A stretch of 33,871 bases of DNA from a virus. This document shows positions 14,334 to 31,529 of this stretch, piece after piece. Below the pieces are notes generated by a model. That model saw nothing but the letters and a program-made list of their open reading frames with translations, searched no databases and had not been told where the DNA came from. Position numbers and translations under genes: made by a program. The stretch lies in the IMG/VR virus record IMGVR_UViG_3300045999_006432, positions 1-33,871 of that record; one strand, written 5' to 3'. How positions within the stretch are numbered: position 1 is the stretch's first letter; each line of letters begins with the position of its first letter.

Positions 14334-17042
14334 TTATCTTGGCGTGGTAAATTTTTGTCTTATTCGTATGTAATCAATCAATGCAGTTCTGGCCGTAGTT
14401 CCGTTGGATTTCAATATAGTGGCAGCAGGAGTTAAATTGCCAGTTGGTATGTTATTGGTTTCCGTTTTGACCAAAGCTCCATTAATATAAAAGTTCACAC
14501 TTGTCCCTGCGGCATTAACCTCAAAGCGTAGGCGATACCATCTACCAGCGGTTACAGTTGAATCCGTAGTGGTATAGGTTCTTGTACTTGCATTTGAGCA
14601 TACAACTTGCCATCTGCCTATCGCTGCGCTACCAGTAGTTGCCCCGGCTGAATCGTACAAAAAATAAATTGCGTTATTCGCAGTAGTAACTCCGCTTCCA
14701 CTAAAACCTGTGGAAAATGCAAATGTCTGTGCGCTGGATGATAAAGTAGGTATCTGAACATCAGATTCAAATATTATTTTTCCACCTCCTACAATAAGTG
14801 TACTGACCGCATTACCATCTGATAATATAGCTGCTCTTCCAGTAGCACTTGTTGACGTACTTAACTGCAAAATGCCGGGTCGGTTGCTGATAGGAGTAGC
14901 AGCGGAAATCGCACCACCTGTCAGGTTATTTTGAAAAATAAATCCATTCCCAGTACTTGCAATTGGATAAGTTAAAAAATCCTCCATTGCCATCATACCA
15001 TTTGAAGTAAGCCAATTTTGGTCAGTACTCCACCATCCGAAATCTTGCGTGAAAGTACAATTGGCATCATAAGTCGTATTGTAAATTTGTGTTCCTAATG
15101 CCGGGTTAGACATAGCATCCATTGCAGCTTGAGTCATTGCTGTGATGCCTACATTTTGCCACCTATTTCCGTTATATTGATTGACTATTGAATCGGTTGT
15201 ATTCCATACCATTAACCCGGTAGCCGGACTGCTTATGGCGTTGCGTTGTGTAGTTGTCATGCGGGGGATTAGCAACCCTCTATTTGTGGATGTCAAATCA
15301 AGCAAAGCAGTTGAAATCGGAGTTGATGTTCCTGCGGTATTTGAAATTCTAACTGCGTTTCCGGTCATGTCGACAGTATATCCAGAGTCTATATTTGTAA
15401 CACCTATCTGCCCCATCTTTATATTTCCGTTTGCAAAGATGGTAAATGGATTCCGCTCGCCGGGATTAGAATAATCGTTTTTAACATTGAATAAATTTCC
15501 AGATGATTGCGCATTGTAATTACCGAAAATAAATCCTGCTGATGTAGAATTATTAGTAAAGCGAGGGCCTCCGTTTGTAGTGTATAATTGTGGATTGTTT
15601 GCCGTCATATAAACATCTCCATTACTTGGTCTTAAATCTATGTTACCATTTGAATTAGCAAATTTTAATGACCCTTGTGTCGATGTACCAAATCCTTCAT
15701 AATAAATACTACCGCTTTGGGCATTTCCGGTACTTCCGGTAGCAGAAAAATTTATAAAGTTTGAGCTTTGATCATTCCCTGCGGTTTTCTGATTTATAGT
15801 CAAGTTCCCGGTTGAATCAAGCACCATCCGCTCTACGTTGTTCGTCCTAAACCTTACCGAAGCATTGTTCGTACTTCCGAGAAATTTACCTGCATTTACA
15901 TCAGAGTTACCATTTGTTTTCCATGCCGGTATAGTTAATGTTGTAAGCACTTCAGATAGATTAGAATTTTCAGTATGCAAAGTAATATTTCTACCCCCGG
16001 GGATTACATAAACCCGAACGGCGATTCTATCCGTTGCTAAAAGTGTGGCAGTTGGTACTGGAATTGATGTAAAATATTGATCAACGGTTGTTGCATTTGT
16101 GATTGTTTCCGGGTTCGTACTTCCCGATGCTAACAAAGTAAAAGTTGAACCATCATATTTATAAACCTCGGCGTAAAATTGAGGACTGCCTCCTGAACTA
16201 TTTGCAGCAAAATAAAATTCCAAATTCCAATTTCCGCCCGGAATACCTAATACATTTGGATCGTTTGCATCGGTTATGAACGATGCGATATATCCATTTC
16301 CTTGTGCATTAGTTCTTGTGAAGTTTGTTCCTGCTCCGAATATGGGATTCTGGCTTAATTGGTAATAAGTTGTTCCACCGAATGTTCCTTGACTGATAGA
16401 GCCATTCAAATAAAAATTAATAGTGCCTGCTCCACCGCCGCCGCCGCCTCCAGTACCTACCGAATCCACAAAAGACTGCGCGAGATATATCGTATCGTTA
16501 TCAACCCTTACAGGATATTTGACGTAAAAAGTATCCGGCTGCGGGATAGCGGCGTAGATATTGGCACGCATGGTATCGCTCCGGTACTTCGTAAAATAGG
16601 TCAAAGAATCCGCGTTCTTAATGTACGAATATAAATTCGCACGCATCGTATCACTCCTATACTTCGTAAAATAGACAGAACTATCCGTTGACACAATGCT
16701 TGCGTAGATATTCGCACGCATCGTATCCGCCCGGTAGACTGTGAAGAAAATCGTACTATCGGCAGTACCTCCTCCGCCGCCACCTCCGGTCCCCAGCTTT
16801 ACCCAGCTCGAACCAGTATAAACATAGACCGAACTATCGGATTTCTGATAGCGTATCTGCGCCGTGTCACGCCCTCCGGTTATATTGCGCAGCGCAGAAA
16901 TCCCGATGGGAATGGTCAGCACCGAGTCTATCAGCATCCGCTTCACCGGACCATAGCCTGCCTGTGGCATAGCCTGGTAAACCTGCGCATCGGTCCTGAT
17001 TGCGCAGAAAAAGAAAGCGAGTATGATTAAGGCGTAGCGCAT
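14334..17042 (-). CDS. Secreted-type modular tail fibre
   Basis: This 902-residue protein begins with a signal-peptide-like segment (MRYALIILAFFFCAIRTDA). Residues about 62-83 have the YTGSSWVKLG motif; about 94-170 hold three repeats of roughly 27 residues with core YRSDTMRANIY. Two seven-glycine linkers (GTGGGGGGG, near 85-92 and 197-205) separate modules. Residues about 580-640 carry RGLLIPRMTTTQRNAIS, a motif of Bacteroidota tail fibres, and the C-terminus (about 835-880) has a concanavalin-like GRWYRLRFEVN...VNFYINGALV pattern. A host-recognition fibre is likely. DNA beyond the second linker (below about 16430) is A+T-richer than before it, suggesting module exchange. Confidence 0.72.
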   Translation of the reverse strand: MRYALIILAFFFCAIRTDAQVYQAMPQAGYGPVKRMLIDSVLTIPIGISALRNITGGRDTAQIRYQKSDSSVYVYTGSSWVKLGTGGGGGGGTADSTIFFTVYRADTMRANIYASIVSTDSSVYFTKYRSDTMRANLYSYIKNADSLTYFTKYRSDTMRANIYAAIPQPDTFYVKYPVRVDNDTIYLAQSFVDSVGTGGGGGGGAGTINFYLNGSISQGTFGGTTYYQLSQNPIFGAGTNFTRTNAQGNGYIASFITDANDPNVLGIPGGNWNLEFYFAANSSGGSPQFYAEVYKYDGSTFTLLASGSTNPETITNATTVDQYFTSIPVPTATLLATDRIAVRVYVIPGGRNITLHTENSNLSEVLTTLTIPAWKTNGNSDVNAGKFLGSTNNASVRFRTNNVERMVLDSTGNLTINQKTAGNDQSSNFINFSATGSTGNAQSGSIYYEGFGTSTQGSLKFANSNGNIDLRPSNGDVYMTANNPQLYTTNGGPRFTNNSTSAGFIFGNYNAQSSGNLFNVKNDYSNPGERNPFTIFANGNIKMGQIGVTNIDSGYTVDMTGNAVRISNTAGTSTPISTALLDLTSTNRGLLIPRMTTTQRNAISSPATGLMVWNTTDSIVNQYNGNRWQNVGITAMTQAAMDAMSNPALGTQIYNTTYDANCTFTQDFGWWSTDQNWLTSNGMMAMEDFLTYPIASTGNGFIFQNNLTGGAISAATPISNRPGILQLSTSTSATGRAAILSDGNAVSTLIVGGGKIIFESDVQIPTLSSSAQTFAFSTGFSGSGVTTANNAIYFLYDSAGATTGSAAIGRWQVVCSNASTRTYTTTDSTVTAGRWYRLRFEVNAAGTSVNFYINGALVKTETNNIPTGNLTPAATILKSNGTTARTALIDYIRIRQKFTTPR
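16532..16763 (-). repeat. Three tandem YRSDTMRAN repeats in tail fibre
   Basis: Three copies of a unit of about 26-28 codons with core F-T-x-Y-R-x-D-T-M-R-A-N-x-Y lie between the two glycine linkers. The DNA copies differ mostly at third positions, so the repeat is under protein-level constraint. Such repeats may form a trimeric shaft. Confidence 0.75.
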
Positions 17043-17455
17043 GCGTCAAATTCTCTTTGTGTATTAAAATTAATGTTCATAGAAACCCCCGCCAGGTAGT
17101 CCTCGTACTTATCGGATATCTTGTTAATCGTTATCAGGTCATCGATATAATAATCTCTCCGGGTGGCCTTTAACATTTGGATGATATCCTCGGCAATCTG
17201 CCACTGATCGCTGATTACATCGGTTTCGAACTCGGCCTCCTGCCCGGCCTTGTCAAGAAAAAAAAACTGCACCGTGTAAACTTGCTGCCGTCCATTGGCT
17301 AGGCTACCGCTGACCAAATCAAAGCAGCAGACCGGTAGCGGTGGGTCGCTATCTCTTTTCAGCCACTCGGCTACTGACGTGTGTTTTGCCGTCTTTATCA
17401 TTCCGTGACTTGCCAAGATTGCATCGATTTCCTTTATTAGTTGGTTGTAGGTCAT
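17027..17455 (-). CDS. Putative head-tail or tail-completion protein
   Basis: This 142-residue protein starts MTYNQLIKEIDAILASHGMI and combines an N-terminal helix, a central strand region (PVCCFDLVSGSLANGRQQVYTVQFFFLDK) and a helix with IAEDIIQMLKATRRDYYI. Size, fold pattern and position directly after the connector gene fit tail-terminator or neck proteins; this is inference from context. It overlaps the start of the fibre gene by 16 bases. Confidence 0.55.
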   Translation of the reverse strand: MTYNQLIKEIDAILASHGMIKTAKHTSVAEWLKRDSDPPLPVCCFDLVSGSLANGRQQVYTVQFFFLDKAGQEAEFETDVISDQWQIAEDIIQMLKATRRDYYIDDLITINKISDKYEDYLAGVSMNINFNTQREFDACATP

Positions 17456-18285: not shown

Positions 18286-20303
18286 TGCTTTTTCCTTCTA
18301 ATGATTAGCGATTTCCACTCATGACGGCATTGCGTATCGGTAAAGGTTCCGCGATTCCAGAATCCACCTACCCTATCCCACACGCTATATCCCAGCACCG
18401 AACTCATCTGCTCAATGTTCGACCTGCTCCAGACTCTTGTTTTTGCCAACTTTATCATTTCTTTACAAAACATCCGGGAAGGATGGTCGGTAGTATCACG
18501 CTCTGAAACCGGAACAATATCGCGCCATGCGTATGTGTATCGGATGACAAGCTCCGTAGCCTCTGGCTTATATTCTGCCACATTTCTCTCCTGCACATCA
18601 TAGACCGGAATCTTATCCGTTCCGATTTTCTGCGTGTTAATCTTCAGCACTTCAGCCTTGACGAGTCCATTGATTGCGGTCTCGATTACTTTGGTACTTT
18701 TATCCAAAGCCCTCGCGATGGCCTCTGTGTCGACCTTACCCTTGTCCTTTTTAATCAGGAAAATGATATTGCTTTCAAGTTCGTTCAGGTCTTTCTGCTC
18801 GGCGAAGTAGTTTACTTCCGATGCAGATTTAGTCTCCAAAACTTCGTAATCTGTGGAATCTTCGCTGAACTTTTCAAAGGCTGCGAGAAGCTCCATGTCG
18901 ATTTCAACCTGCGAAGCGAACTGGGCAGGCTCAGGGTCAAGCAGCAAGGCTATATCGCCATCGCTCAAGCCGAAGCCATTGCGCAGCATCATAGCTGCCT
19001 GCTCTCGTGTGAGGCTGCCTTTCTCGTACTTCCGCTTGATTCGCTCGAGCTGCTGGAACTGCCTTCCGGTCATCCCGGCGAGGTTGCTATTTATCTCTGC
19101 CGCCGTTGGTTGCGGTTGTGATGTCGTAGGAGCGTCATTAACGGCTTGTTTCCCATCGGAGGTAACTTGACCCGATTCAAGCGGCTGCTTGCCCATAATC
19201 TCACGGATTTCGTTCTGTGTGAGGTTGGCAGCTATGATTGTCTCGCTGAACTCAAACTTCAGCGGCTCGACCGGCTCGATGGTGTACTCTCCAGGAATCC
19301 CTATGATGGCAAAAAGCTCACCGAAATTCTCGTTGTGTGTCTCCTGCCTTTCCTGCACGTATGTGTTATTGAAAATCTCATAGGCATCGCGAAGCTCCGT
19401 CCTGCCTCCAAGCTGGCCCTCGGTCTTGATGCCCATTAGCGCAGGAGATACAATCTGATGCCCTGCGAAGATTTCCTGCTGGATCAGGTTATTGATGTTC
19501 GTGAAATCCTCCTTCGTAAGCATAGTCGTGGAAAGCGGCACTATATCAGCCGCATTGTCCTTCGACTTATTGAACATGATGACCACGCGATCCCCTTCAC
19601 TTCCGGTAAACTTTTTCTTAATCCCTTTCTCGATTGCAGCCTTATGCTCCTCTTGAGGCTCTCCGCCATTGAGGTTTATAAGAGTGCTTGCCGTAAAACC
19701 TTCCTTCGCATTACCCAGAACATGCCTTGAAACCTGCACATCACTGTCAATCATGTTTAGGGCAGCATAATATGACGGTAACGGATAAACATCGGAGAGT
19801 GGATTGTATTGTTTAACTGCGAGTATCTGCGAAGCCACTGCTTCAGCCGGATTGAAACTCGGATACATCCGCGCCTTTTCTTTGAAGCTTTGCCAATCAT
19901 TCTTAACATAGTATTCGGTCTGGTCTTTATTGCTTCTTACCTTATGGTATTCAATATGGAAAACGTCTTTAATCTGCCCGAGCAGATTGTAGATGACTTG
20001 AAGATAATAACCTCCATAAAGCTCATCATCCATGATGCATTTTTTCAAGATCTGGTTCCAACTTTCCCCGGCAGTATTAGCCTTAACCGGAACATCCTGG
20101 AAGCCATGGCCGAAAATGTACCCGACCTTGCTCTTGACGATGGCGCCATGTTTGGGTGACTCGTTGAAAAGGCCGAGGAGATAATTCGGGTAGTCGTTAT
20201 TAATGCCGAACTCGACTATATTCTTGGACTTGTTTTCCTTGAATATAGGCTGCTCCGCACGCGCGAATTTTATGCTGATAAGATTATTGTAGTTATTGTG
20301 CAT
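18282..20303 (-). CDS. Portal protein with extra C-terminal domain
   Basis: The first 400 or so residues look like a phage portal (FGINNDYPNYLLGLFNESPKHGAIVKSKVGYIFG; GGYYLQVIYN; VSRHVLGNAKEGF; LIQQEIFAGHQIVSPALMG). After a disordered Pro/Gln linker comes a helical region, a winged-helix-like segment (about 520-570) and a final domain with DHPSRMFCKEM, LGYSVWDRVGGFW and TDTQCRHEW, whose His/Cys spacing suggests a metal site. At 673 residues it is longer than a typical portal. The C-terminal part may be a fused minor-head or morphogenesis domain. It forms the dodecameric DNA gate (family knowledge). Confidence 0.72.
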   Translation of the reverse strand: MHNNYNNLISIKFARAEQPIFKENKSKNIVEFGINNDYPNYLLGLFNESPKHGAIVKSKVGYIFGHGFQDVPVKANTAGESWNQILKKCIMDDELYGGYYLQVIYNLLGQIKDVFHIEYHKVRSNKDQTEYYVKNDWQSFKEKARMYPSFNPAEAVASQILAVKQYNPLSDVYPLPSYYAALNMIDSDVQVSRHVLGNAKEGFTASTLINLNGGEPQEEHKAAIEKGIKKKFTGSEGDRVVIMFNKSKDNAADIVPLSTTMLTKEDFTNINNLIQQEIFAGHQIVSPALMGIKTEGQLGGRTELRDAYEIFNNTYVQERQETHNENFGELFAIIGIPGEYTIEPVEPLKFEFSETIIAANLTQNEIREIMGKQPLESGQVTSDGKQAVNDAPTTSQPQPTAAEINSNLAGMTGRQFQQLERIKRKYEKGSLTREQAAMMLRNGFGLSDGDIALLLDPEPAQFASQVEIDMELLAAFEKFSEDSTDYEVLETKSASEVNYFAEQKDLNELESNIIFLIKKDKGKVDTEAIARALDKSTKVIETAINGLVKAEVLKINTQKIGTDKIPVYDVQERNVAEYKPEATELVIRYTYAWRDIVPVSERDTTDHPSRMFCKEMIKLAKTRVWSRSNIEQMSSVLGYSVWDRVGGFWNRGTFTDTQCRHEWKSLIIRRKKQ

Positions 20304-20664
20304 TGTAAATCTCGAATTGGTTGTCCTGTGCGTTGTATATCGTAAAGGCGAACTCGCTCGCCGGATGCAGGTACATGTAGCCTGTCTCGCAAATGGTCCC
20401 GCTTTCCGTTACATCGTTGCCATCTTCTTTCTCCCTGATCGTGTAATCCCAGAGGCCCTCCACCTCGTTTGCGAAATGGTCATTTACCACTATTTCCGAC
20501 ATGTCAAACCGGGCTGCTGTGCTATCGTTTTGGAGGTTAATGCTGACTTTCTTTTTCGTTGCCCGGTGAACAAATGTAAACAAAAAGCGCGGGAGCGTAA
20601 GCGTTGCCAGCTCCGTCGCGGTGTATTTAATTGTTACGGTAGTGCCTTTGGTTAGGTGCAGCAT
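20293..20664 (-). CDS. Conserved structural-region protein
   Basis: The 123-residue protein starts MLHLTKGTTVTIKY at ATG 20664; a TTG at 20670 is in frame but lies inside the terminator's T run and is less likely. It has a beta-sandwich pattern (LPRFLFTFVHRATKKKVSINL, GLWDYTIRE, GYMYLHP) seen in small Bacteroidota phage proteins beginning M-L-x-L-T-K-G. It overlaps the portal gene by 11 bases. A decoration or head-completion role is possible. Confidence 0.65.
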   Translation of the reverse strand: MLHLTKGTTVTIKYTATELATLTLPRFLFTFVHRATKKKVSINLQNDSTAARFDMSEIVVNDHFANEVEGLWDYTIREKEDGNDVTESGTICETGYMYLHPASEFAFTIYNAQDNQFEIYNAQ

Positions 20665-20668
20665 CTTC

Positions 20669-20702
20669 AAAAAAAAAATCCCCGGCGTTTCACCGGCCGG
20701 GG
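20669..20702 (-). terminator. Rho-independent terminator after capsid and tube-like genes
   Basis: On the minus strand CCCCGGC and GCCGGGG form a 7-bp stem around a 9-base loop, then AT(9). It starts 23 bases past the stop of the 174-residue gene and ends just before the ATG at 20664. Partial termination here would give more capsid and tube-like message than portal message. Confidence 0.85.
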
Positions 20703-20724: not shown

Positions 20725-21249
20725 TTATGAGCCAGGTGTCTCCAGAGCAGCAGCCACCGCGTCGCTGACCACGAAGAAATCCTCCTTCTCCTGACCTATA
20801 AACGGTAGTACATATCCGTTGGCGTCACCAGCGGCACTGCCAGTCTGCCCGGTACCACCTTCAAGGAAACCGCCGTACCCTTTGAAGTACATCCGGAAGG
20901 TTCCGTCTTTGTCCTTCGTCACCGCGATAACCTTATTTTTGGCCAAAGCAGTAACCACGTTACGAGTGGTAGCGTCGCGCTTGTTTACCGGGAAGGTTAC
21001 AGTCTGATCGAAGAAAAGTGTACCATTCTCGGTCGAACCGACCGGATTGCTCGAAGCATTGGCGGTAGAACGGCTGGGCACTTCGAACTTATAAAAACGC
21101 TTTCCGCTCGCTTTAGTCATGGCCGTAATCGTACCGCTTGATTCTCCGAAGGCGGTGATATTCGCATGTTCGATGAAGAAAACCGCATCAATACCACCGA
21201 CTGCGTCACGGCAATCGATGGTATATCCGGCTATTAGTGCGCAAGGCAT
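20725..21249 (-). CDS. Major tail (tube)-like structural protein
   Basis: This 174-residue protein begins MPCALIAGYTIDCRDAVGG and continues as alternating strands (VFFIEHANITAFGE, TLFFDQTVTFPVNKRD, NKVIAVTKDKDGTFRMYFKG), ending with GGTGQTGSAAGDANGYVLPF. This arrangement is common in a Bacteroidota phage structural family that I associate with tail tube proteins; the name is inference. It is 24 bases after the capsid gene and followed by a strong terminator, both fitting a highly expressed virion subunit. Confidence 0.6.
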   Translation of the reverse strand: MPCALIAGYTIDCRDAVGGIDAVFFIEHANITAFGESSGTITAMTKASGKRFYKFEVPSRSTANASSNPVGSTENGTLFFDQTVTFPVNKRDATTRNVVTALAKNKVIAVTKDKDGTFRMYFKGYGGFLEGGTGQTGSAAGDANGYVLPFIGQEKEDFFVVSDAVAAALETPGS

Positions 21250-23890: not shown

Positions 23891-25768
23891 TTATCCAATA
23901 CGAGCCGCACGCTCGATGCGGATACGGCGTTCCTGATTATTTGCTACATCCGTCTCAAGCACATAGGACCGCACCGCTGCATTGCCTATCTGGTTGATTT
24001 GGCCCTGGTCTATTCGGGTGGTTTGTGGCACTGCCTGAATCTGCGGAGGAGGAGGAGCTACCCCTGCACCAGTTGGAACGCTGCCACTTGTTGAGCCTCC
24101 ACCTTTGCCGCCGGGTATCGGAGTCTTTATGATATCTCTTACTGCCTTGAATCCTACAAGTCCGGTAACTATTGCTTGCGCTATGGCATAACCGGGAACC
24201 GGTACTCCGGAGAAAGCTTTAAGTTGCCCGGCTATTGCTGCATAAGTATTAATCAACGAAGATGCGACGGCAAGAGCTTTTCCTGCTGCGGTTTCCTTAC
24301 CTACTATATCGCTCAATGCAGTAAGTCCACTTCCTACTGCATCAAGCAATTTCATCCTATTATCGAAATCCTTTTGCCTGATATCGGCAATAGTTTTTAT
24401 AATATCTTCCTCAATTTTCTTTTGCTCTTCGGCTATCTTTTTTGCTTCTTCAAGTTCTTTCTCATCTTGCTGCCTTCTTGCTTCAGCTTGCTTTTCGTTT
24501 AGTTCAATATCAGCAGCTATCTGCTTTTCAACTTGTTCAAATTGCAGCTGGCTTAAATCTTGATTATATTTTTCGCGCAGCAGCTTTATAGTCTCGTTCT
24601 TCTCTTTTTCCGTTGCTTTTGTCTGCTCTATTTCCTTTACACTGTTCTCAAGCTGGATGCGTAGTTTTTCCTGCGCTCTTGCATTTTCATCTTGTATGCT
24701 TTGAAGATAAATTTCTTGCTGCAAATCAAGCTGCCTTTTGTCCTGCTCTTTATTTGCATCCGCTATCTCCTTTGCTCTTTCTTTTTCCTTCTGCAACCGT
24801 TCCTTGTGCGCCGCGTCCTGCTTCTCCTTTATCTTCTTGTTCTTCTCGTCTTCGGCGTCTTGAGCTTTTTTATTCCTTGCTTTATCGGCTTCATCAAGTT
24901 CAAAATTCCTTTTTAAAGCATAGTTTGTTAAGGCTTTGTTCTTTTCCTCTTCGGACATGGTCGTGTCCTTGTCTATCTCTAACTTCTTGGTCTTATAGTC
25001 TATATCCGCCTGAATCTTTCTCTTTGTGAACTCATCATATTTATACCCCTCCTGATCTAGGAAATCCTTGGCAGCCTTCAACTGCTTTTCGCTCGCTGCA
25101 ATGAATCGCTCCTGCGCTCTCTCCGCTTCGCTTGTTACTCCGATGAAGTCGGTAACCTTGTTGATTAGATTGCCCACGAACTCACCTACCTTCGCAAGTC
25201 CGGGTATGAAGTTCAGCACAACCTGCTTGACCTTATCAAAGTTCGCTATGAGCAAACCGATACCGACCGCAAGCGCACCGAGTCCAGTGGCAATAATGGC
25301 TCCTCGCAATGTGCTGAATGCTTTCGTAACTCCGCCGACTATTTCATTCTTCAGAAGTTTAAAAGAGTCCAAAGCTCCGGCGATACCGCTTATTCCCTGC
25401 TGCAAGGCCATAGCTGACTGAACCTTCAACAGTGCTTTCTCCACATCCTTCGACTCACCGCCGAAGAGGCCCATTGCCCCTTGAAGCGCGGAGAACCCTG
25501 CAGTAGCTCCTTGCAATGCTCCGCCAAGTGCCACGAACTTTTTATCTGGGTTGAACGTATCAGCAAGAGCCTTCGCATCTCCGATGGCATCCTTCAAGCC
25601 TGCTACCTTTTTCGCTGCTGCCTGCGCCTCCGCAGAAGCCTCACCGAACTGCATCGACATGTTGACAAGTTCAGCCGTTGCCTCCCGCAGTTGCTGCTTG
25701 AAGCTGCCGACAGACTGATTCGCCTGGTCTGCATTTACTTTTATCGATAACGCTACTTCTTCTGCCAT
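23891..25768 (-). CDS. Tape measure protein
   Basis: The 625-residue protein has an N-terminal helical region with Gln/Ala repeats, a hydrophobic segment (about 157-178, IIATGLGALAVGIGLLIANF), a long Lys/Glu/Gln-rich coiled coil (about 215-475) and a Gly/Pro-rich tail (GGKGGGSTSGSV). This layout is typical of siphovirus tape measures, which set tail length and form the DNA channel. At roughly 1.5 angstrom per residue it predicts a tail near 95 nm, a rule-of-thumb estimate. It lies between tail-tip-like genes and the prohead protease. Confidence 0.78.
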   Translation of the reverse strand: MAEEVALSIKVNADQANQSVGSFKQQLREATAELVNMSMQFGEASAEAQAAAKKVAGLKDAIGDAKALADTFNPDKKFVALGGALQGATAGFSALQGAMGLFGGESKDVEKALLKVQSAMALQQGISGIAGALDSFKLLKNEIVGGVTKAFSTLRGAIIATGLGALAVGIGLLIANFDKVKQVVLNFIPGLAKVGEFVGNLINKVTDFIGVTSEAERAQERFIAASEKQLKAAKDFLDQEGYKYDEFTKRKIQADIDYKTKKLEIDKDTTMSEEEKNKALTNYALKRNFELDEADKARNKKAQDAEDEKNKKIKEKQDAAHKERLQKEKERAKEIADANKEQDKRQLDLQQEIYLQSIQDENARAQEKLRIQLENSVKEIEQTKATEKEKNETIKLLREKYNQDLSQLQFEQVEKQIAADIELNEKQAEARRQQDEKELEEAKKIAEEQKKIEEDIIKTIADIRQKDFDNRMKLLDAVGSGLTALSDIVGKETAAGKALAVASSLINTYAAIAGQLKAFSGVPVPGYAIAQAIVTGLVGFKAVRDIIKTPIPGGKGGGSTSGSVPTGAGVAPPPPQIQAVPQTTRIDQGQINQIGNAAVRSYVLETDVANNQERRIRIERAARIG

Positions 25769-29003: not shown

Positions 29004-29600
29004 TTATTTCGGTTTAATGCTTAAAGTTATTTCCTTTCCGTATGCCTTGCCAACTATTGAAGCAATCTCCTTTCGGCTCTCTGCCAGTGCCTCATCAAAG
29101 TATGGACGCCGCTTGATACCTCCCGACTTTATTGCAAAAATCAACGTATCTAACTGGATGTCTGCCACGCTCCGCCGCTTCCTTTCAAGGCCCACCTCTC
29201 TGCCCGGTTGAACGACTCGCAGCGTTGCCTTGCCGTTATCTATCAGGCTCTTTATGTTCTTCCGGCCTTCCGCACTCATGCTGTACGAATCCTTAAAGCT
29301 ATAAGGCGAGCTCGCAGGCTGCTTGCTTCGCGCTCCGCGCACACCTTTATTTATGAAATCATAATAGTACGGAAGCTTGACATTTACCTGATTCGTTCCT
29401 ATCTCCTCAATCTTGGCTTTCTTGAGCAGGTCTCCAGTGTTCACCAGCTTATATTGATTTACCTTTTTAGCTAACACATCAAGGAAATAGCCTGCCGATT
29501 TTACCAGAGCATCCTGCACAATCTGCCCATCAGGGGCCTCATTGAGCTGCCTGATGAAATCAATATTTTCCCTTTGACTCGCGCTTATACTGCTCGACAT
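29004..29600 (-). CDS. HK97 gp10-like tail completion/minor tail protein
   Basis: The 198-residue protein begins MSSSISASQRENIDFIRQL and contains VNTGDLLKKAKIEEI, the VNVKLPYYYDFINKGVRGARSK segment typical of gp10-like proteins (mature strands followed by a Y-x-x-F/Y-I-N-x-G turn), and a C-terminal basic helix (KRRPYFDEALAESRKEIASIV). Such proteins join the head-proximal end of the tail. Its start overlaps the frameshifted upstream protein by 41 bases. Confidence 0.62.
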   Translation of the reverse strand: MSSSISASQRENIDFIRQLNEAPDGQIVQDALVKSAGYFLDVLAKKVNQYKLVNTGDLLKKAKIEEIGTNQVNVKLPYYYDFINKGVRGARSKQPASSPYSFKDSYSMSAEGRKNIKSLIDNGKATLRVVQPGREVGLERKRRSVADIQLDTLIFAIKSGGIKRRPYFDEALAESRKEIASIVGKAYGKEITLSIKPK

Positions 29601-29844
29601 CGTACTCGCTTTTCATTTTAATGTACAACAAATCGTTCAAAAAGTGCAGAACACCTAAACCCCAAACCGATTCGAGAGGTACTGCTTCATGTTCAGCGAC
29701 CATCTTGGCATTGGCAACCCATCCAAAAGTCTCGATGAATAGTTCAGCAGCAGTTCCGCCGTTTCCTTCTTTATCCCCTGGCGAGTTATCTGCTTTACCA
29801 AATAAGGCCGGGTAACGCTCATTGACGCTTGAAATAGAAGATAA
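29560..29844 (-). CDS. -1 frameshift extension of chaperone-like protein
   Basis: If the ribosome slips back one base on the T run at 29851-29843, translation continues from 29844 for 94 codons to TGA at 29562-29560. The extension begins LSSISSVNERYPALFG and contains AAELFIETFGWVANAKMVAEH, VLHFLNDLLYIKMKSEYDVEQY: a normal helical protein, unlike the Arg/Leu-rich 0-frame tail. There is no start codon at its head, so it can only be made by frameshifting, transcriptional slippage, or if the run length is miscounted. Full product about 250 residues. This mirrors the gpG/gpGT tail chaperones of lambda. Confidence 0.65.
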   Translation of the reverse strand, partial: LSSISSVNERYPALFGKADNSPGDKEGNGGTAAELFIETFGWVANAKMVAEHEAVPLESVWGLGVLHFLNDLLYIKMKSEYDVEQYKRESKGKY

Positions 29845-30311
29845 AAAAAAACCGCAGCGTGGTACGCTACCTCGAAGTCCAGCTTCTCCATATCCGCAGC
29901 TATCTGGCTATGCTCAAGCTTGTAAGGCTTACCCCTCCAGTTCACAGGCTCCGCCATCGTTGCCATAATGATATGGATATTAGGCACAAGGTCCTTGCTG
30001 AACGACATCGCATCGATATACTTCCCGGCATTATTCGGGAATCTGGTGATATCGTAATGCAGGCGGTAGAACCGCTTTCCTATCCGTACTAGTTTCCTCG
30101 GCTTCGACCTCATCCAGTCACGCTCCAGCAGGCTGAACTGCTTCTGTATCTTGGCGCATATCCGGTTGAACGGCCCGACCTTCATAGCCTCAACCTCTTC
30201 CGGGGTCTTTCCGGTGATTACGCCGACAAGTTTTATCGACTTGTCGATATCGTTTTCCCACCTTTCGGAGATGTAGTACAACTCCTGAAACTGCTTGACG
30301 GTTAGCTTCAT
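29655..30311 (-). CDS. Tail-assembly-chaperone-like protein, 0-frame product
   Basis: The frame gives 218 residues starting MKLTVKQFQELYYISERWEND and continuing IKLVGVITGKTPEEVEAM, NRICAKIQKQFSLLERDW and YDITRFPNNAGKYIDAMSF. Residues 1-156 look like the conserved N-terminal part of a phage tail chaperone. Residues 157-218 lie after the slippery T9 and may be only the default tail. Position after the terminase and before tail genes fits the role: preventing premature tape measure and tube assembly. Confidence 0.62.
   Translation of the reverse strand: MKLTVKQFQELYYISERWENDIDKSIKLVGVITGKTPEEVEAMKVGPFNRICAKIQKQFSLLERDWMRSKPRKLVRIGKRFYRLHYDITRFPNNAGKYIDAMSFSKDLVPNIHIIMATMAEPVNWRGKPYKLEHSQIAADMEKLDFEVAYHAAVFFYLLFQASMSVTRPYLVKQITRQGIKKETAELLLNYSSRLLDGLPMPRWSLNMKQYLSNRFGV
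29843..29851 (-). promoter_or_regulatory. Slippery T9 frameshift site
   Basis: On the minus strand, zero-frame codons read GTT TTT TTT TAT; T-TTT-TTT fits X-XXY-YYZ with perfect re-pairing after a -1 slip, giving TTA next. Such homopolymers also allow polymerase slippage. A sequencing miscount of the run would mimic the same effect. Confidence 0.6.
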
Positions 30312-30341: not shown

Positions 30342-31529
30342 TTAGATGAAATAATACTGCCCGGCACTCCGATTCTCGTTATAGCACTTCCATGCCAAAG
30401 CCAAAGCGCACACGCAGTCATCGTGGAACCCGGTAGGTGCGCCGTACTTTACCCCGGTCGCGGTGTATTGGAACTCGAAGATTTCCAACTCGGTCTTGAT
30501 ATAGTTGTCGGGGAAAAATACCTTCCGCTGGTGGATGGCAGAGGCTAGGCCCTCCATTAGCGGCTGCTTGCTGGTGGAGGTGAACTTGAACCCTGCCATC
30601 GAGTTAAAATGCTTCTGTAAATCCTCCGTGATCGGATCTCCGTTCCCGGTGCTATCTATCATGATGGGGATGTGCCGAGGCAGGCTCCTGATGGTTTCCT
30701 TCGTAAGATTCCAATCCTTCTGGAACCGCTCGTAGTGGCAGACAGTTCCGGTATCATCCAAGCCGACTACAACCGTGTAGTCAACTGACTTGGCAAGGTC
30801 AATGCCGTAGGCTATGGCAGGACGGTTGCTAATAGGCCGAACGCATGCCGCCAGATGGCTACTTCCGAACGGATTGCTTGCGTTCTCCATAGCGTTGGCC
30901 ATGTACTCCTGCTCGAAGACCGCAGTCGGCAGTAAGGCCCTCGCATCGTCTATCTCCGCCGGGTTGATGTGGGGGTTATCGTAAGTGGTAAACTTGAACG
31001 ACTGCCATCCCGGCTCGCCATCCTTCAGGAACAAGGAATAGAAATAGTTCCGCCCCTTCGGAGTCGAAAGGAAGATGGCCCGGCCCTGATAGTCGGTCAA
31101 GGTGGGCCGTATGCTATTAAGCCATCCGGATTCTAAATCGGAGATATAGCTTGCCTCATCGATTATCACCAGATGGAAGCGCAGGCCACGCATTGCATCG
31201 AGCCGCTCACCGGTAAAGAAACGGATGCTGCCGCCGCCATCGAACTTGATTACAAGGTCGGAACGGTTGCACTCGTACAAATCTTTCGGCAGGTTCTTAA
31301 TCATTTCGTCAAAGAACACCTTCGCCAGCTGATAGGTCGGAGTGATATAAGCAATACTATTACCGAAGGTTGCCTGCTCGATTGATATGATTTGAGATAT
31401 AAGAGACTTACCGAAACGCCTTCCGCACATAAGAACGCGGAATCGAGCCGCACTTGTTAAAACTTTATGTTGCGCCTTATGCGGATTGAATTGTATTATT
31501 ATTTTCTGGGTTTCCATATTGGACAACAA
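30342..31529 (-). CDS. terL: Terminase large subunit
   Basis: The 395-residue protein has all TerL landmarks: Walker A CGRRFGKS (35-42), Walker B LVIIDEA (120-126), coupling motif FLSTPKG (153-159), and RNase-H-like nuclease acidic sites in YGIDLAKSVDYTVVV, MIDSTGNGD and GFHDDCVCALALA. It drives ATP-powered DNA packaging and cuts the concatemer. ATG at 31517 (METQKIIIQF) is as likely a start as 31529; either overlaps the terminase small-subunit gene by 41-53 bases. It is compact for a TerL but seems complete. Confidence 0.92.
   Translation of the reverse strand: MLSNMETQKIIIQFNPHKAQHKVLTSAARFRVLMCGRRFGKSLISQIISIEQATFGNSIAYITPTYQLAKVFFDEMIKNLPKDLYECNRSDLVIKFDGGGSIRFFTGERLDAMRGLRFHLVIIDEASYISDLESGWLNSIRPTLTDYQGRAIFLSTPKGRNYFYSLFLKDGEPGWQSFKFTTYDNPHINPAEIDDARALLPTAVFEQEYMANAMENASNPFGSSHLAACVRPISNRPAIAYGIDLAKSVDYTVVVGLDDTGTVCHYERFQKDWNLTKETIRSLPRHIPIMIDSTGNGDPITEDLQKHFNSMAGFKFTSTSKQPLMEGLASAIHQRKVFFPDNYIKTELEIFEFQYTATGVKYGAPTGFHDDCVCALALAWKCYNENRSAGQYYFI

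Follow-up and report, generated by a model that had tools for sequence, protein, structure and literature searches.

A nine-T slip run and two selected reading frames in a probable tail-assembly-chaperone gene of a large phage group

Introduction

In tail-assembly chaperones of the lambda G/GT type, the N domain binds the tape measure and the extension binds the tail tube, and neither is known to be part of the virion. The lambda slip site is G_GGA_AAG, and that of the E′ product of phage P2 is rich in T. Outside phage tail genes, Shigella mxiE undergoes transcriptional slippage at a nine-base run. The lambda gpG/gpGT pair arises from a -1 shift late in a tail gene, which yields a short protein and a C-terminally extended protein with one N domain, and lambda-type tail genes have been described as using ribosomal frameshifting (PMC5009743). 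Bacterial RNA polymerase slips efficiently on runs of nine A or T (PMC5009743; PMC1088944), and slippage of this kind occurs at a nine-base run in dnaX of Thermus (PMC1088944).

Results

The stretch of DNA that was analysed, here called the window, is the IMG/VR virus record IMGVR_UViG_3300045999_006432 (33,871 nt). On its minus strand, a gene for a 218-aa G-like protein (29655..30311), conserved over its full length in relatives, consists of a shared N-terminal domain (codons 1-156) followed by a 62-codon zero-frame C-terminus. A run of nine T (T9, minus strand, 29843..29851; A9 on the plus strand), read as GTT TTT TTT TAT, carries in frame the heptamer T_TTT_TTT, which follows the X_XXY_YYZ pattern of programmed -1 ribosomal frameshifting. 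A -1 slip after GTT TTT TTT would lead into a T-like helical domain of 94 codons plus TGA (29560..29844, minus strand; TGA at 29560-29562), with the pattern FGW..NAK.V..E......W.L....FLNDLLY.K.K, and the predicted product is 250 aa long (156 shared residues plus 94). The 62 zero-frame codons 3′ of the slip (29655..29843, minus strand) form a dual-coding overlap in which both frames are read. As in genes of the lambda G/GT type, the slippery site lies late in the gene and is followed by an open -1 frame that would give a fused product. In line with the statement of an earlier note on this DNA that the extension has no start codon of its own, no ORF of at least 60 aa beginning with ATG, GTG or TTG is present in that stretch.

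The gene lies directly after that of the terminase large subunit (TerL; 30342..31529, minus strand; Pfam Terminase_6N/6C above cut-off), and is followed by three tail-region genes and then by a gene for a tape-measure-like protein (23891..25768, minus strand), which has PHROG tape-measure matches (e.g. phrog_9483, E 2.3e-9) and resembles gene 49 of the Nonlabens phage P12024S (E 4e-5). The next gene downstream (29004..29600, minus strand; 198 aa) overlaps the end of the -1 extension by 41 bases. It had no Pfam or PHROG match, and blastp against P12024S gene 42 gave E 2.7; its position is equivalent to that of gene 42, which we read as gp10-like, and it may be gp10-like as well.

Taken by itself, the window says little about the use of the -1 frame. 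When the gene was recoded with random synonymous codons and the zero-frame protein held fixed, 3.4% of the trials left the -1 frame free of stops throughout the 62-codon overlap, and the tape-measure gene of the same stretch also contains an open -1 stretch of 87 codons, so that an open frame in one sequence is modest to weak evidence and the relatives are decisive. These were collected by IMG/VR scans that used the zero-frame protein, alignments of it, or the extension by itself as the query. In three sets T9 stands at the same codon in 68/68, 49/49 and 79/79 relatives; in a further set it does so in 21 of 22, the remaining one having T10. The distant group around P12024S has T9 in 62 of its 63 members, and in the last a substitution that keeps the frame has produced T10. 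These sets overlap with one another. The two T10 runs are the sole departures from T9 among the relatives found by protein similarity. A tally of 272 distinct sequences (271 with T9) was used for counts of flanking codons only, since by its design it admitted no sequence lacking T9 or T10. In nearly all relatives both frames are conserved and free of stops. The zero frame runs on past the slip for 50-87 codons in most of them (16-25 in part of the P12024S group), and the -1 extension is about 76-95 codons long. At least 120 IMG/VR viral contigs contain the exact 20-mer GTTTTTTTTTATCATTTAGG, and in all 80 loci that were read (L385-L464) it falls inside this gene, with neither frame interrupted. 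The alignment of homologues over the T run thus bears out the proposal, made from the single sequence, that a -1 frameshift is hidden at T9.

Selection on the two frames was assessed from substitutions in 18 independent pairs, against evolution simulated under selection in one frame only. Across the overlap, the other frame had accumulated far fewer changes than expected in each direction (z = -11.0), and no stop was seen in either frame where 16-17 were expected per frame. Changes at the three zero-frame codon positions numbered 143/121/360 upstream, 90/125/132 in the overlap and 13/68/27 past the zero-frame stop. Upstream and downstream controls behaved as single coding; the upstream controls kept a residual z of -4.0 and -1.9, and therefore only values well below -4 are meaningful. 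When the test was repeated with 45 window-type and 37 P12024S-type pairs, z ranged from -11.4 to -19.5. Both the zero-frame tail and the -1 frame are under purifying selection across the overlap, and selection marks the -1 extension as a genuine protein domain, as in genes of the lambda G/GT type. The gene has a second selected C-terminus in its zero-frame tail. The earlier note was wrong in calling the last 62 zero-frame codons less protein-like, because these codons are conserved in relatives and selected (z about -11).

Among cultured phages, P12024S (JQ823122) and P12024L of Nonlabens have a homologous gene directly after TerL. In P12024S, this is gene 38, which follows TerL (gene 37), has the same T9, and carries an 81-codon -1 extension and a 25-codon zero-frame tail, as compared with 62 codons in the window. 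The zero-frame profiles of the window and P12024S groups match over 193 columns, in an alignment that pairs their slip codons (E 9.6e-15), and their extension profiles match with E 2e-8. The tail672, tape-measure, protease, capsid, 174-aa, portal and 263-aa proteins of the window also match P12024S proteins, and the structural module is syntenic, with equal order once the different start point of the record is allowed for. Whereas our reading of genes 38/39 is of one two-frame gene with T9 at the same codons, the P12024S annotation, the one annotated genome checked, splits the product into two hypothetical proteins and lacks the long overlap; gene 39 (23663-23830 of L162) takes in only a portion of the -1 extension that belongs to gene 38.

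A natural fusion was found in one relative (L355, 847-1587), in which a run of T10 places the N domain and the extension in one continuous ORF, and in-frame stops interrupt what is left of the old zero-frame tail. This T10 is known from a single contig and the run may be miscounted, but either way the zero-frame tail has been lost; a search for a closer relative of L355 found none. The models of the N domain and of the extension both match BFVD entry A0A6J7WJY4 (243 aa).

The window protein had no tblastn match among INPHARED phages, and two scans of GTDB genomes found no relatives and hence gave no host or prophage assignment. The phages that carry the T9 gene are siphovirus-like members of a large, mostly uncultured group whose hosts are probably Bacteroidota.

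Discussion

The two-frame gene is probably a tail-assembly-chaperone gene of the lambda G/GT kind, giving an unshifted G-like product and a shifted product with a helical T-like domain. The earlier proposal of a longer, tail-chaperone-like protein agrees with the deep conservation of T9 and the -1 frame, with the position of the gene, with synteny and with weak matches to Pfam PF10109 (Phage_TAC_7). The continuous ORF of L355 and the BFVD entry that matches both parts also favour this reading. The Phage_TAC_7 matches were obtained in 16 of 27 members (E up to 1), over the N-terminal 50-60 residues, and the best of the 27 scored 22.7 bits, under the gathering cut-off of 25 bits; phrog_166 ('tail protein') was likewise matched weakly by 21 of the 27, and no curated family cut-off was reached. 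As the Pfam cut-off was not reached, the chaperone function is one that we infer. A PDB sequence search returned no match to a solved structure, and the VIA-align fold search gave weak, uninformative matches only (best Z 4.3). AlphaFold (AF2) predicts, in the gene product, an N domain that is largely helical and has a single beta hairpin (pLDDT 74) and, folded separately, a helical extension (pLDDT 67).

The late -1 shift and the design of a short and an extended product with a common N domain are those of lambda gpG/gpGT. Here, however, the slip site is a U-only T9 instead of G_GGA_AAG, the zero frame stays open for a further 62 codons after the slip and is selected there, and the gene directly follows TerL, four genes before the tape measure, whereas in genes of the lambda G/GT type the tape measure is usually, not invariably, immediately downstream. 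The P2 gpE/E′ and Mu gp41 group (Phage_TAC_7) shares the weak N-terminal profile similarity and the T-rich slip site, but our proteins are about twice as long as its 79-position model, have the long dual-coding overlap and score below the cut-off. With Shigella mxiE and Thermus dnaX, the likeness lies in the run length of nine; those are not phage tail genes, and slippage by the polymerase is only putative here. The recoding strategy itself is a known one, that of G/GT, and what is new is the strict T9 and the dual-coding overlap of 50-87 codons in most relatives. A search of open-access literature found no report of a -1 frameshift in these phages, and it is weak evidence of novelty because it covered open-access papers only.

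We propose that most expression would yield the unshifted 218-aa protein, while a fraction would slip -1 at T9 to give the 250-aa protein, which has the same 156-residue N domain but ends in another, helical domain. If the lambda scheme holds here, tape-measure binding would fall to the N domain, and recruitment of the tail-tube protein to the -1 domain. That both proteins would be made, their presumed ratio and the likely slipping machine are matters that we infer from sequence.

On precedent, we lean slightly towards the ribosome as the agent of the slip. The same gene and products would result, however, if RNA polymerase slipped at T9 and added one extra U to some mRNAs, which is quite possible, although short of an even chance. 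The run is nine, rarely ten, in all relatives, as long as a polymerase slip site is expected to be (at least nine), though T_TTT_TTT needs only seven, and its outer T residues are always kept while the encoded flanking residues vary (V/L/I before; Y/W/C after). A downstream stimulatory RNA structure, which is common but not required in ribosomal frameshifting, was not conserved in ten sequences (fold z-scores -1.7 to +2.4). Against the polymerase stands not only the description of ribosomal frameshifting in lambda-type tail genes (PMC5009743) but also the coding content of the run: the first T is set by a hydrophobic residue and the ninth by a Leu in the -1 frame, so that the length of nine can be explained by coding alone. 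It also counts against the polymerase that a hairpin immediately 5′ of T9, present in the window's subclade, is not kept across the family; as a family element this hairpin was rejected (129 representatives; mean energy -4.32, with synonymous nulls at -4.31). The fuller proposal that a large group of siphovirus-like phages, probably of Bacteroidota, sets its chaperone ratio by polymerase slippage at a fixed T9 and encodes two selected C-termini in the stretch after it is possible but less likely than not.

Two other readings concern the gene itself. That it is a real two-frame gene for some other tail or neck assembly protein is unlikely: it adjoins TerL four genes away from the tape measure and its family matches are all sub-threshold, but a -1 shift late in a helical protein within the tail module, the matches to Phage_TAC_7 and to tail proteins, and the synteny with P12024S tail genes point to a chaperone. 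Much less probable still, indeed barely credible, is a base miscount in which the true run is T10 and the gene one continuous ORF. Homopolymers are error-prone and L355 does have T10 with a continuous ORF, but sequencing error was rejected as the cause of the frame break, since T9 recurs in many independent assemblies and in the cultured phage P12024S; moreover, the zero-frame tail is selected in its own right, which a continuous gene would not produce.

A chaperone gene with two C-termini, as we read this locus, would carry G/GT recoding into a large phage group, most of it uncultured, in which frameshift annotation was not found, with an unusually long dual-coding overlap whose two products are both selected. 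The combination of T9, the lack of RNA structure and a cultured phage makes it a clean case for telling ribosomal from transcriptional slippage.

Elsewhere in the window, a second T9 on the coding strand (17258-17266), inside a 142-aa gene (17027-17455), was considered as a slip site and rejected; it looks incidental, as both shifted frames contain stops. A run of A10 lies on the plus strand (20669-20678) at the start of a 125-aa gene (20293-20670). The 174-aa protein (20725-21249) resembles two P12024S proteins, 03 and 09, and these are perhaps duplicated tail-tube-like genes.
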